In this document: positions 36,089 to 42,738 of the stretch, in pieces
Position numbering within the stretch: the stretch's first letter is position 1
Layout of the letters: each line of letters starts with the position of its first letter
Virus record (IMG/VR): IMGVR_UViG_3300007725_000008
Location: 1 to 42,738 of that record
DNA from: a virus
Reading direction: 5' to 3' (one strand)
DNA length: 42,738 bases
Position numbers and translations under genes: made by a program
Notes under the pieces: model-generated
The model's input: only the letters and a program-made list of their open reading frames with translations
What the model was told of the DNA's origin: nothing
Databases searched by the model: none

Positions 36089-37549
36089 TCAATAATATGC
36101 CCGTATCCTAGCAGATTCCCCGCCTTCTTGCCAATCATCTGTTGGCAACTGCACAAAATTACCCTGTCGATACCTCATCAAAGCCTGAGTCATGCTGTCA
36201 ACCAAGTCGTCATGCTCACCATTCGGAAACGCCGCAACTTCCTCAATCAACTCATCCGCAAACACCTCATCAGGTGCCCAAACCATACCTGCCTCAAACA
36301 ACGGACTTACACTATGAACACGCGTAACCTTGTCGTTACCCCTACTCGGCGTGAAATTTACAACAGGTATCCCCATGTTCCGCAATTCATGCGTCAAAGG
36401 CATACCACTCGCCTTCGCCTCAATTATCACCGTGTCGGGGTCCCAAAACTGATACTCCTCTAACGCCTTCGCCTTCAACTCAGGAAACTCCCAACGACCC
36501 TTCTTACTATCCAACAATATCAAGTTAGGACCCGAACCACCCTCATTCGGATAAAACACACCCCACGTCGTAATCGCACTATAGTCAGCACTCTCTCGCT
36601 TACTAAACGCAGTATCATAACTCTGAATCACATACTCCAACTGCGGAACAGTCTCCTTCTCCCAAACACGCCACCACTCACGCTTGATAATCGCATTCTC
36701 TTCACCCGTAGGTTGCTGCTGATACTGAGCGTTCCACTTGCTCGGCGGAATAGATGCGCGGACCGCGGTCAAATCCTCAAGACTCCAGAACTCAGGCCAA
36801 CACGGAGTCCCATCATCAAATATAGCCGGCAACTCCACAACTTCCCACTGATCCGCCAACGGGTCTTTAGCCATAGCCCGCAACAACTGACCCGTCATGT
36901 CCTTCTCAGACCAACGCGTCTGAACCAAAACAATACTACCACCCGGCTGTAAACGCTGTCGGGGACCCCCAGTATACCAATCCCAAGCATCATCAAAACC
37001 ACTGTTGCTCATCGCAGTCTGCTCAGAATGAGGGTCATCGATAATCACCAAGTCACCACCACGACCCGCCAAGTTCGAACCAACACCAACAGCATAGTAC
37101 ATCCCACCACGGCTCGTGTCCCACCGACCAGAGGCTTTACTGTCCGCCGCGAGCTTTACGTCAGGGAAAACATCCTTGAACTCGTCACTGTCAATCAGGT
37201 TCTTCGTCTTCCGACCAAAGTTCACTGCAAGCTCCGTAGTGTGCGTCGCCTGAATGATTTTCATGTTAGGATTCTTGCCCATCATCCACGCCGGAAACAA
37301 GAAAGATGCGAACTCACTCTTCGTGTGCCTCGGGGCCATATTGATGATTAATCTCTTCAATTCACCACTAGCTACGCGCTCTAGTTTTTCGGCTATAATC
37401 CGATGGTGCCTACCAGATATAAAGTCTGGCCACATCGCAGACACAAAATCTAGAAAATTTTCACGGCAAGCTTCCTGTTTTTCAATCTGTGCCAGACGCA
37501 ATCTAAGCTTTAATGCTCTGTCTTCTACTGAACTTGTGGTTGCATTCAT
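36089..37549 (-). CDS. terL: Terminase large subunit (packaging motor ATPase/nuclease)
   Basis: A 486-aa protein with a deviant Walker A (72-79, APRHTKSE), Walker B (166-172, DLVIIDD), and a coupling motif (VLVQTRWSEKDMTG, 207-220). The RNase-H-fold nuclease part supplies acidic residues D312 (QSYDTAF), E377 (VIIEAKA) and D447/D448 (HDDLVDS). All elements of a TerL are present, so it should be active. It would drive DNA into the head through the portal. It is separated from the small subunit by a 4-kb module. Confidence 0.95.
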   Translation of the reverse strand: MNATTSSVEDRALKLRLRLAQIEKQEACRENFLDFVSAMWPDFISGRHHRIIAEKLERVASGELKRLIINMAPRHTKSEFASFLFPAWMMGKNPNMKIIQATHTTELAVNFGRKTKNLIDSDEFKDVFPDVKLAADSKASGRWDTSRGGMYYAVGVGSNLAGRGGDLVIIDDPHSEQTAMSNSGFDDAWDWYTGGPRQRLQPGGSIVLVQTRWSEKDMTGQLLRAMAKDPLADQWEVVELPAIFDDGTPCWPEFWSLEDLTAVRASIPPSKWNAQYQQQPTGEENAIIKREWWRVWEKETVPQLEYVIQSYDTAFSKRESADYSAITTWGVFYPNEGGSGPNLILLDSKKGRWEFPELKAKALEEYQFWDPDTVIIEAKASGMPLTHELRNMGIPVVNFTPSRGNDKVTRVHSVSPLFEAGMVWAPDEVFADELIEEVAAFPNGEHDDLVDSMTQALMRYRQGNFVQLPTDDWQEGGESARIRAYY

Positions 37550-39592: not shown

Positions 39593-40714
39593 TTAAGCGG
39601 CAATCCGCGCCCAATCGCGGTTGGATATGTTGAGCAATTGCCCGCCGCGTTCCTGCCACATGTCGACGTCGTCAATATCCGCCTTATGGGCACAAGCGGT
39701 CACTGCATTAACCAACGTCGCACGGGATAGCGGCCGCCCCTGCTCATATCCAGATTGGCCAATCGTTTGCATCAAACCGTTCAAAACGTCATTATTTTCT
39801 TTTTTCGACAATTTCAAAACGGTTCCCACACTCTCGACAATGTCCACAACCTCGTATTCACCTTCAATTACGTCGTCGGCCGCGCGGCGCATCTGGTCCA
39901 ATACCGCATCAAAACTTTCACGCGACGCATAAGCGGCCGTCAAATCGCGAAGTTTTAATTCCAGTGCGCGGTTGTCAGCGTCTTTGGCCTCGTTAGACAA
40001 AAGGCCATAATCCGATTGGTCCCGTGCGCTCGTAATGTGAGAGCTGCGCGTTTTGTTTTGGGTTTGCATACCGTTCAGACATGCCAAGGTCCAGTTGATC
40101 TGATAAACAGAAACAGAACCCGCGCCAACTTCAGAGTTTTGGAAACCGATGCCATTGGCCATAAGATCACCAACGGCCGCGCCTTCCCCCGTTTGGGTTT
40201 CAGATTTAAGGCGCAAATAAAGGCGCTTGTCTGAAACGTCCGCGTTAACAACCTTCCATTGTGCATCGCTTTCCATCAATTGGGGCAAGCTTGCCTGTAA
40301 CAAATTGACATTGTCGAAAGTTTTAAACTTATCAGAAACAAACGCCCGCGCCGTTCCGCTTGTTTCATCCCCGTCGAGATATGTCCGCACCATGCGGTTA
40401 ACGGGTTCTTTCTGCCAACGCGCATTAATTAGGGCGTCATATTCGGCGGGATAATTGGCTTGCAAACGACGGGCCGTGCGGGTGTCGATTTCGGCGGCCT
40501 GTGCGATTTGGCCCTGCGTAAATTCGTTGATCTTTAAAACGCGCGTTGGTTCGCCCCCGTTTTGTTCAATAACCAATTGCGGATTGCCATCAACGTCAGT
40601 GACCTTGGCAAGGTTATTTGTGGACGTCAGAAAATCCGCGCTGCGGTTGTGACGTTCCTGCACGGTTTGTAGTAATTGTGAAAGTGTGCCTTTTTCGTTT
40701 TCAATGCTATGCAT
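39593..40714 (-). CDS. DUF932-like phage/plasmid protein (373 aa)
   Basis: The central pattern is that of DUF932 (phage/plasmid-like protein): RAFVSDKFKTFDN at 123-135, a RLYLRLKS strand, GIGFQNSEVGAGSVSV (188-203) and INWTLACLNGM (206-216). Earlier residues 60-95 hold a TQGQIAQAAEIDTRTARRL helix-turn-helix-like segment, common in the family. The role of DUF932 is not established. TATGAGGTAAAAAC precedes the ATG. Neighbouring genes have the same leader. Confidence 0.8.
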   Translation of the reverse strand: MHSIENEKGTLSQLLQTVQERHNRSADFLTSTNNLAKVTDVDGNPQLVIEQNGGEPTRVLKINEFTQGQIAQAAEIDTRTARRLQANYPAEYDALINARWQKEPVNRMVRTYLDGDETSGTARAFVSDKFKTFDNVNLLQASLPQLMESDAQWKVVNADVSDKRLYLRLKSETQTGEGAAVGDLMANGIGFQNSEVGAGSVSVYQINWTLACLNGMQTQNKTRSSHITSARDQSDYGLLSNEAKDADNRALELKLRDLTAAYASRESFDAVLDQMRRAADDVIEGEYEVVDIVESVGTVLKLSKKENNDVLNGLMQTIGQSGYEQGRPLSRATLVNAVTACAHKADIDDVDMWQERGGQLLNISNRDWARIAA

Positions 40715-40757: not shown

Positions 40758-40761
40758 GTTT

Positions 40762-40783
40762 GTCTCATATTATCGCATATGAT
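40762..40783 (-). promoter_or_regulatory. ATATGCGAT element B
   Basis: Sense CATATGCGATAATATGAGAC, before hairpin T3. Shares the GAYAATATG core with A and D and ATATGAGACAAA with C. Confidence 0.45.
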
Positions 40784-40806: not shown

Positions 40807-41511
40807 TTATTCCGCGCCAATATCGCCCGCAACATGGTGGCGCACAATTGACCGCGGCGGCAAACCAGAAACAAAACGTTTCAGTTTTTCCCCGTCGGTT
40901 TCATCTTGCGACGCGTTGGCGGTTTCATCCCACCAAATCCGACAGTTTCCCGCATCCGCATAGCATCCGCCGCGAATAGTTGGATCGGCGGCCGCGCGTT
41001 TACTCGGACCGTGCGCAGTAAATCCAACAATAAAATTGCGATTTAGGCGGGCGCACAAGGGTTCCCCGTTCCCACATTGGGCGCAAGATATATCGCGATA
41101 TTCGGCAGGGCAGCGCACAATAGTTTTCCCGTGCGGCGCGGCAGTTTTGCGGCCGTGCCAAAATTCCGCGGGCACAACCAGAACAGAGGGAACGCCGTTA
41201 TAAATCGACGCCGTCGCGGCAAGCGCGCTTTCTGTTGAAAAGTTTACGACGGTTTTCCCCTCTGTTAATTTTTTGCCCCAACCGAAAACATTGGGATCAA
41301 AATGCGAATATGTAAACGAAACGCCTTTGCTAGGCACCGCGTCCAATAACGCGTCAAAATATTCCCAATCAATTGATTTTGTCCCCGTCCCGCTGCAATT
41401 CATTTTGCAATCAATTGGGCAAGTCCCGTATTTGTTCTTTGTGCCCGCCCGATATGTTACAGCGATGCCTTTGGTTTTTTTAGCGCGTGAAATTTCTACT
41501 GTCTTTAGCAT
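40807..41511 (-). CDS. Cys-rich protein with DUF7227/Gp88-like motifs in unusual order (234 aa)
   Basis: I place the start at the ATG at 41511, preceded by ATGAGGTAAACGTT; the frame upstream (to 41586) is leader. Nine Cys occur: C31, C35, C39; C134, C143, C146, C153; C183, C190. In order: CPIDCKMNC (31-39), GVSFTYSHFDPN (63-74), VVNFST, an RCPAEYRDISCAQCGNGEPLC block (133-153), VGFTAHG (162-168), GGCYADAGNCRIWWD (181-195) and LPPRSIVRHHVAGD (217-230). These are elements I associate with DUF7227/Gp88-type Cys proteins, which probably bind metal or an iron-sulfur cluster, but the GCYA and RHxxGD elements normally precede the YTH and AHG ones. Function unknown. Confidence 0.7.
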   Translation of the reverse strand: MLKTVEISRAKKTKGIAVTYRAGTKNKYGTCPIDCKMNCSGTGTKSIDWEYFDALLDAVPSKGVSFTYSHFDPNVFGWGKKLTEGKTVVNFSTESALAATASIYNGVPSVLVVPAEFWHGRKTAAPHGKTIVRCPAEYRDISCAQCGNGEPLCARLNRNFIVGFTAHGPSKRAAADPTIRGGCYADAGNCRIWWDETANASQDETDGEKLKRFVSGLPPRSIVRHHVAGDIGAE

Positions 41512-41526
41512 AACGTTTACCTCATG

Positions 41527-41550
41527 ATATGCGATTTGTCTCATATAAAT
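41527..41550 (-). promoter_or_regulatory. ATCGCATAT element C (inverted copy)
   Basis: Sense ATTTATATGAGACAAATCGC followed by ATAT. It sits between the terminator and the ribosome site, so it must contain or overlap the promoter of the Cys-rich gene if that gene has its own start of transcription. Confidence 0.45.
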
Positions 41551-41720: not shown

Positions 41721-42128
41721 TCATGTGGGACATATCAAGTTAAAAACGGAATCCCAATCGAACTTTTTCTCCGATACAAAAACGGCCTCTGTTTTGAGGC
41801 CGTCCGTTTTTACATCTATCGCTTGCCGTGCATGATACAAAAATAACTTCGGCACCGACGTAGCCTTGGATTGCTGTTTAACCAATATCCAACTGCTACT
41901 GTGTTTATGCTTGGTAAGCCATGCCACCTGATGCGGGCTAAGGTTTACCGCGTTCGCTTTACAAAACTTTAGCTCGACAAAATGAAACGCGCCACGCTCA
42001 TCACAAAGCATAAGATCAGGTATGCCACGCCCAACAGAGTTTTCAATTCTGGTGAGAATCAAACTCCGCGTCTTCGATCTCTGCGCTGCTGCCTTCAATT
42101 GCTGATAAAGGCCCGCTTCGGTCTTCAT
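41721..42128 (-). CDS. VRR-NUC-type PD-(D/E)xK nuclease (135 aa)
   Basis: The VRR-NUC pattern is present: LTRIENSVGRGIPDLML, then FHFVELKFCKA, LSPHQVAWLTKH and WILVKQ. The catalytic set is the PD of GIPDL, the E and K of VELK, and the Q of HQVAW. Such nucleases act on branched or replicating DNA, or serve packaging and host-DNA degradation in phages. The ATG at 42128 is chosen from family start patterns; 42161 is the other ATG. Either overlaps the terminase gene by 86-119 bases in another frame. No strong ribosome site is visible. Confidence 0.8.
   Translation of the reverse strand: MKTEAGLYQQLKAAAQRSKTRSLILTRIENSVGRGIPDLMLCDERGAFHFVELKFCKANAVNLSPHQVAWLTKHKHSSSWILVKQQSKATSVPKLFLYHARQAIDVKTDGLKTEAVFVSEKKFDWDSVFNLICPT
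41778..41803 (-). terminator. Terminator-like hairpin inside the nuclease gene
   Basis: On the minus strand ACGGCCTC and GAGGCCGT form a perfect 8-bp stem around AAAACA, followed by TTTTTG. It lies about 57 bases before the nuclease stop. Confidence 0.6.
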
Positions 42129-42705
42129 CTTGATTTGGGGTAATATCGATTGCGTCGCCATAGGTTGTCTTCAATTCGTTCAAAGCTTTCAAAACGTCTT
42201 CTTTGCTCATGCTGTCAATGCTGCCGTGCCTGATCTCAGATTTCGAAACATAGATATCGCCCTGCGCCATGCCTCGACGGTACTCCGCCTGAACTGCGGC
42301 AGAGTATGCCCCGTTCTCCATTGCCAGATCACGGATGCGCTGCAAATCCCTAACGTGCCGTTGATAGGTCACGCCAAACTTTGCGTCCAACTCATCCTTA
42401 TACTCTTTAATCATCTTGCAAACGTGCGGGCTGATATATGGGTTTGTCATTTGCGACGCTCGGACAGGGGCAGACTTCTCAGAGTATCCTGCCCGCAATG
42501 CTGCCTCGGTTGCTGTGATTGTCCCGTCGTTGGAAACCAACTCTTTAACAAAAATTTCCTGCATGCGTGTCAGGGGGCTATTCTCATTCACCCGCTTACG
42601 GCCGCGCAACTCATCAGGGTTTTGTTTGTTATATTTCTTGGCGGTCGGTTTCTTCTTTGGTCGGATAACCAAACCTGCGTCCAAGATGTTCTTTTTCTTT
42701 GCCAT
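42043..42705 (-). CDS. terS: Terminase small subunit (220 aa)
   Basis: The ATG at 42705 has GAGG 6 bases before it; the Met four codons earlier overlaps that site. After a Lys-rich N-terminus (1-40) the HTH part reads SPLTRMQEIFVKELVSND, TATEAALRAGYSEKSAPVRASQ and ISPHVCKMIKEY (about 43-102), the pattern of Terminase_2-like small subunits that bind the packaging site. Helices follow (105-175), and the C-terminus is acidic. It is the first gene in the window; no promoter is evident in the 33 bases upstream. Confidence 0.85.
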   Translation of the reverse strand: MAKKKNILDAGLVIRPKKKPTAKKYNKQNPDELRGRKRVNENSPLTRMQEIFVKELVSNDGTITATEAALRAGYSEKSAPVRASQMTNPYISPHVCKMIKEYKDELDAKFGVTYQRHVRDLQRIRDLAMENGAYSAAVQAEYRRGMAQGDIYVSKSEIRHGSIDSMSKEDVLKALNELKTTYGDAIDITPNQDEDRSGPLSAIEGSSAEIEDAEFDSHQN

Positions 42706-42738
42706 GTCATGCCTCATAACTATTCAGCTATAATAACA

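Follow-up and report, generated by a model that had tools for sequence, protein, structure and literature searches.

The window analysed here, a virus sequence of 42,738 nucleotides (IMG/VR record IMGVR_UViG_3300007725_000008), contains a gene whose product carries the cysteine motifs of the DUF7227 family in an order that differs from that of its relatives. How this order arose, and how such a chain could still build a site from its cysteines, are the questions raised by the locus. An earlier note on this DNA had read the protein as a natural circular permutation in which the N-terminal third had moved, or as a member of a separate sister family.

Motif content and family assignment

The window protein shows CPIDC at residues 31-35, FTYSH at 66-70, CPAEYRDISCAQC at 134-146, GFTAHG at 163-168, GGCYADAGN at 181-189 and RHHVAGD at 224-230. 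All the motifs named in the earlier note are present in the order that it described, and the same order was found in 216 further related genes. The assignment as a DUF7227 relative also stands: Pfam PF23872 matches with 98.3 bits (E 6.3e-28; gathering cut-off of 27 bits). The match consists of two pieces in inverted order, residues 46-175 against profile positions 91-218 and residues ~181-232 against positions 35-85, which bears out that GCY and RHxxGD, placed behind CPxxC in standard members, now lie at the C-terminus; the native protein does not give a single colinear match to the model. P0002, the relative from phage DSL-LC04, matches PF23872 in three separate stretches. The window protein shows no match to GP88 (PF17338) in Pfam at E 1 or better, nor to any radical-SAM Pfam family; NCBIfam gave no match and PADLOC no defence-system match. 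The window gene product and protein P0003 match phrog_2554, a profile 529 positions long in which DUF7227 occupies only positions ~311-524, and some phrog_2554 members may carry a fused N-terminal domain.

Table 1. Coordinates of the rearranged DUF7227 gene, its segments and neighbouring genes in the window
Feature	Position	Strand	Remarks
A-C-B order DUF7227 gene, 234 aa	40807..41511	minus	ATG start; Pfam match; dN/dS ~0.11-0.22
Segment A, residues 1-44: strand beta-1, CPxxC loop (C31, C35)	41380..41511	minus	Counterpart of the standard N-terminal segment; Ap vs As by hhalign 97.1%, E 6e-11; after reordering, the alignment begins at profile position 7
Segment C, residues 45-178: helix alpha-2, YSH strand, CPAE, CxxC-x6-C, AHG	40978..41379	minus	Counterpart of the C-terminal half of the standard chain; Cp vs Cs by hhalign 99.9%, E 9e-33; Pfam 46-175 = 91-218
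Segment B, residues 179-234: GGCY (C183), helix alpha-1, RHHVAGD strand	40810..40977	minus	Transposed piece, mid-chain in standard members; hhalign Bp vs Bs 98.7%, E 2e-16; Pfam fragment match 35-85, E 8e-7
VRR_NUC-like nuclease gene	41721..42161	minus	Directly upstream, conserved cassette; Pfam VRR_NUC 8e-5, 23.1 bits, just below the 23.8 cut-off; phrog_2165/phrog_93; 199/217 A-C-B loci
Terminase small subunit gene	42043..42717	minus	Upstream end of cassette; Pfam Terminase_2 5.6e-7; 195/217 A-C-B loci
Terminase large subunit gene	36089..37549	minus	Downstream; Pfam Terminase_6C 6e-9; 101/217 A-C-B loci, mostly downstream
373-aa neighbour	39593..40714		No Pfam match; phrog_1362 matched over full length; near 46/217 A-C-B genes

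Segment order and type of rearrangement

The domain was divided into three segments: A (KTGPIPV..CPxxC), B (GCYA..RHxxGD) and C (YTH..CPA..CxxC..AHG). Standard members, among them the proteins of PAK_P1, CRP-345, P-GSP1, P-SSP7 and DSL-LC05, show the order A-B-C, with a helix, YTH, NxS, CPA, CxxCxxC and AHG in segment C, and the window protein shows A-C-B. The moved segment B is about 55 residues long and carries putative key active-site residues. Comparison of segment profiles across the two orders with hhalign gave 97.1% for A against A, 98.7% for B against B and 99.9% for C against C, and the six mismatched pairings gave at most 1.1%; by these profile matches, all three segments are homologous between A-C-B and A-B-C proteins.

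Three segments allow two cyclic classes of order, ABC/BCA/CAB and ACB/CBA/BAC. All six orders of the window protein and a head-to-tail duplicate were scored against PF23872. The native A-C-B order reached 98.3 bits in two stretches, and its rotations B-A-C and C-B-A reached 99.1 and 99.3 bits, both split. The C-A-B order (106.9 bits) was also split, and B-C-A gave 111.8 bits in one stretch, 36-218, that left segment A out. The A-B-C reorder reached 120.3 bits in one stretch, 7-217, and was the only one of the six orders with a single near-full-length match. The head-to-tail duplicate, a search which the earlier note had suggested, gave four separate stretches and did not restore a full-length colinear match.

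Since the segments match diagonally and only the A-B-C reorder restores the full PF23872 match, the rearrangement is best described as a non-cyclic transposition of B, from A-B-C to A-C-B. A circular permutant has an order that is a rotation of its parent, which A-C-B is not, whereas the segment-wise profile matches are those of a non-cyclic permutant, with homologous segments in an order that rotation cannot reach. The circular permutation proposed earlier does not hold, and neither does the shift of the N-terminal third: segment A with CPxxC remains N-terminal and only B has moved. Because the artificial A-B-C reorder alone is colinear over the whole PF23872 model, we class the window protein, on the basis of its sequence, as a rearranged variant of DUF7227 and not as an ordinary member.

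At the junctions, the C-B linker corresponds to the ordinary C-terminal tail of the standard proteins (consensus AHGPSKRKAADP, compared with AHGSSKRKANSV), and GGCY comes almost immediately after it; the A-C linker retains the short stretch that normally lies ahead of helix alpha-2. The stop comes at most a few residues after GDIG. The segments look intact at the junctions of A-C-B proteins, which show no trace of a second A.

Distribution and genomic context

Viral contigs, phages, plasmids and genomes were scanned and yielded 217 A-C-B and 171 A-B-C genes, together with a few additional incomplete genes at contig ends; the A-C-B figure counts loci, not distinct contigs, a few contigs being present twice under different locus ids. 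No intermediate order was found among the 388 genes, and no locus carries both forms. The A-C-B genes come from viral contigs, one complete phage genome (DSL-LC04) and a few MAG contigs, which may themselves be viral. A DUF7227 protein of a Tunturiibacter phage (L370:4992-5684) bears the product name DNA methyltransferase, a name that is unsupported in Pfam. On a Variovorax paradoxus plasmid, a standard-order DUF7227 gene (L371:2740-3420) lies near genes for a YqaJ recombinase and a DUF932 protein.

The genes for the terminase small subunit and the VRR_NUC-like nuclease precede the A-C-B gene in ~90% of loci, and the terminase large subunit gene is usually downstream where the locus extends far enough (Table 1). 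This position beside terminase and VRR_NUC genes hints weakly at a nucleic-acid-related role. The 373-aa neighbour may, by its look, be a DUF932-type protein. In seven loci (L072, L082, L085, L086, L087, L109 and L118), a standard-order gene occupies the same terminase-VRR_NUC slot, with similar terminase and VRR genes. Because L072 clusters with the main body of standard genes in the tree and not beside the A-C-B clade, gene replacement is more likely at these seven loci than retention of an ancestral locus.

Both gaps flanking the window gene contain an exact copy of the 12-mer ATATGAGACAAA on the minus strand (40759-40770 and 41535-41546), each near GC-rich hairpin-like stretches. Allowing up to two mismatches, ATATGAGACAAA shows nine sites against 3.75 expected; it is perhaps a phage promoter or a regulatory repeat. 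No Rfam element was found near the gene.

Phylogeny and selection

In a tree built from reordered sequences, with L374 added and the long-branch rows L049 and L370 left out, the A-C-B genes form one clade (support 100/99), whose sister is the standard-order pair L289/L374 (support 98/87). In the gene trees the A-C-B genes are a clade within DUF7227, contrary to the idea of a separate sister family, and the A-C-B order appears to have a single origin. An earlier tree, with a single L289 row and with L049 and L370 included, placed L289 with the standard group, and a tree of segment B only, which has few columns, needed two order changes. The placement of L289/L374 as sister is good but not final, and rests on these two close sequences and a shared loop: CxxC-x6-C (once x7) is found in every scorable A-C-B gene and in L289/L374, and CxxC-x2-C in all 171 other standard-order genes.

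The Pfam GP88 model (PF17338) scores some standard DUF7227 members above its cut-off and is colinear with them over almost their full length; because this match is colinear, it supports A-B-C as the ancestral order. A profile built here recovered GP88 as a relative at 46% only, with the reordered alignment, although the Pfam model does match standard members. DUF5131 (Gp37/Gp68) was rejected as a sequence relative (hhalign under 1%).

Whole-gene dN/dS, calculated for pairs with unsaturated dS, was 0.11-0.22, and that of segment B lay between 0.06 and 0.24, one near-identical pair excepted. Seven cysteines are 100% invariant in both orders (69 representatives, 23 A-C-B and 46 A-B-C). This invariance, together with the low dN/dS, indicates purifying selection and hence a functional protein.

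Cysteine sites and predicted structure

Four of the invariant cysteines, C134, C143, C146 and C153, lie wholly inside segment C. GP88 has exactly three invariant cysteines, near its N-terminus. Given the seven cysteines conserved across both orders and the three of GP88, the three-Cys set may be a cluster site, accompanied by a four-Cys site specific to DUF7227, a reading that we consider just short of an even bet. If it is right, the three-Cys site of the window protein would be formed by residues 31, 35 and 183, and cysteines from both chain ends would have to meet, as the earlier note had pointed out. The spacing of the window protein, C31-x3-C35 with the third cysteine at 183, is not a contiguous CX3CX2C.

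AlphaFold2 predicted a confident alpha/beta fold for both orders (pLDDT 90, pTM 0.89), with corresponding strands and helices in the two models and with the strand of the moved segment, 222-227, formed. Foldseek against PDB returned nothing at E 0.001 for either order, and a sequence search of solved structures with the standard profile found nothing. VIA-align of the standard-order model placed radical-SAM enzymes on top: PFL-AE with Z 6.3 (rmsd 4.1, 165 aligned), a value within the range that such models reach by chance, and EpeE (Z 6.1) and QueE (Z 5.4) among CutC and other TIM barrels. The A-C-B model matched TIM barrels at Z 3.2 only and anSMEcpe at Z 2.4 only. Radical-SAM enzymes carry CX3CX2C after beta-1 and GGE after beta-2; in the standard-order model, the CPxxC..GCY cysteines follow beta-1 and AGD follows beta-2. 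Covariation of B with the other segments, compared between A-C-B and A-B-C proteins, showed a correlation slightly above chance, with top pairs no better than the null.

Judging from these models, the fold could be a radical-SAM-like partial (beta-alpha) barrel, in which the three-Cys site would hold a [4Fe-4S] cluster with SAM, AGD would take the place of GGE and the four-Cys site would hold an auxiliary cluster or zinc; we propose this tentatively, at slightly less than even odds. Membership in the radical-SAM enzymes is weakly indicated, with Z 6.3, no radical-SAM Pfam match, a non-canonical cysteine spacing, DUF5131 unmatched and Z 3.2 for the A-C-B model. The fullest reading would be a radical-SAM-like enzyme in which one natural, non-cyclic transposition divided the cluster-binding cysteine triad and the SAM-binding glycine motif between the two termini, with a sister lineage that escaped the move still extant and both forms in the same gene slot of related phages; we regard it as speculative, with the odds tilted against it.

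Origin of the A-C-B order

The best explanation, to which we give a probability of about 0.7, is that B moved once from between A and C to the C-terminus and that the three-Cys site is rebuilt from both chain ends. A single alpha/beta module, comprising the GCY loop, helix alpha-1 and strand beta-2 with RHxxGD, would have been relocated in one event. In the models, B would begin after the loop following beta-1 and end just past beta-2, and would form one helix-strand unit; by the DSSP order, both of its ends probably lie on the same face. With the CPxxC pair (C31, C35) contributed by the N-terminal end and GCY (C183) by the C-terminal end, the chain would then rebuild the three-Cys site that standard members are expected to assemble from adjacent sequence.

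The route to this order may have been a tandem fusion, A1B1C1-A2B2C2, from which B1, A2 and C2 were then lost, instead of cut-and-paste of B; this concerns the origin of the order and does not conflict with the best explanation. For circular permutations, duplication with subsequent loss is the accepted route (PMC2096629), and it can also yield A-C-B, but duplicated or partly deleted intermediates are absent among the 388 genes and the C-B linker is a normal C tail (SKRKAADP, like SKRKANSV) without an A2 remnant, and we consider the fusion route plausible though somewhat less probable than its opposite.

It is unlikely that the A-C-B chain does not rebuild the site within one molecule, with B completing a neighbouring subunit in a domain-swapped dimer or with the sites being structural zinc without cluster chemistry. 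The four cysteines of segment C do form a zinc-like CxxC-rich cluster and no catalytic family is matched; however, the monomer model is confident throughout (pLDDT 90, pTM 0.89), and the three-Cys site, with its invariant GD past the following strand, and the three invariant cysteines of GP88 fit a cluster site better than structural zinc.

A true circular permutation, with the old termini joined and new ones opened elsewhere, would place GCY and RHxxGD at the C-terminus as observed, but it is very improbable: segment A (KTxGIAVTY..CPxxC), a homologue of the N-terminus in standard proteins (hhalign 97.1%, E 6e-11), is still N-terminal, and neither the rotations nor the duplication gave a full-length colinear match. 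An assembly chimera or broken gene, conceivable for a metagenomic virus contig, has a negligible chance, with the same order at 217 loci, one of them in the complete DSL-LC04 phage genome, and whole-gene dN/dS of 0.11-0.22.

Comparison with known systems

Standard DUF7227 proteins (PF23872; Pseudomonas phage PAK_P1, Roseobacter phage CRP-345, Prochlorococcus phage P-SSP7) share with the window protein the three segments, the seven invariant cysteines, RHxxGD, YTH/YSH, AHG and a length of ~230 aa; they differ in having B mid-chain and CxxC-x2-C, whereas the window protein has B at the end and CxxC-x6-C. The L289/L374-type proteins, from a MAG and a viral contig, share the CxxC-x6-C loop (GGGRPLCARxxRD) and are sister to the A-C-B clade, but keep the A-B-C order. 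Of two further relatives, WJZ48072.1 of phage DSL-LC04 has the A-C-B order and 45% identity to the window protein, and the BFVD model A0A6J5N836 (uncultured Caudovirales phage) can be superposed in sequence order along the full length (TM-score 0.92, 41% identity); both are entered as hypothetical or DUF7227 only, and no mention of the rearrangement was found for them. GP88 (PF17338) aligns colinearly with standard DUF7227 across almost all of the domain and has three invariant cysteines near the N-terminus, in the standard order and without the four-Cys site. With radical-SAM enzymes (PFL-AE 3cb8, EpeE 8ai3, QueE 5th5), the predicted likeness lies in the partial (beta-alpha) barrel, the cysteines in the loop after beta-1 and the glycine-acidic motif after beta-2; these enzymes have a contiguous canonical CX3CX2C, and no sequence similarity was detected.

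Both orders of DUF7227 are recognisable in sequence, the event is apparently single, an outgroup sets its direction and an untransposed sister is extant; because all of these are available, the tolerance of a fold to re-wiring can be tested on natural proteins. The analysis also offers a testable cofactor hypothesis for a large phage protein family without an assigned function; no mention of DUF7227 was found in the literature searched.

Non-sequential structural alignments were found to be widespread (PMC2213659), and a survey of 2007 listed one possible natural non-cyclic protein case, between two different structures (PMC2096629). Non-circular permutations of proteins have been described as rarer still than circular ones; DNA methyltransferases are a known example (PMC10085705). 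The motif-order classes of these methyltransferases and the hammerhead ribozyme type SGC resemble the present case in that the blocks of one fold occur in orders that are not rotations (PMC10085705), although the molecules are unrelated to DUF7227. The kind of rearrangement is known, and a non-circular one within a domain is seldom seen in sequence alongside its closest relatives of unchanged order; judged from sequence, DUF7227 is a clear new case of it.
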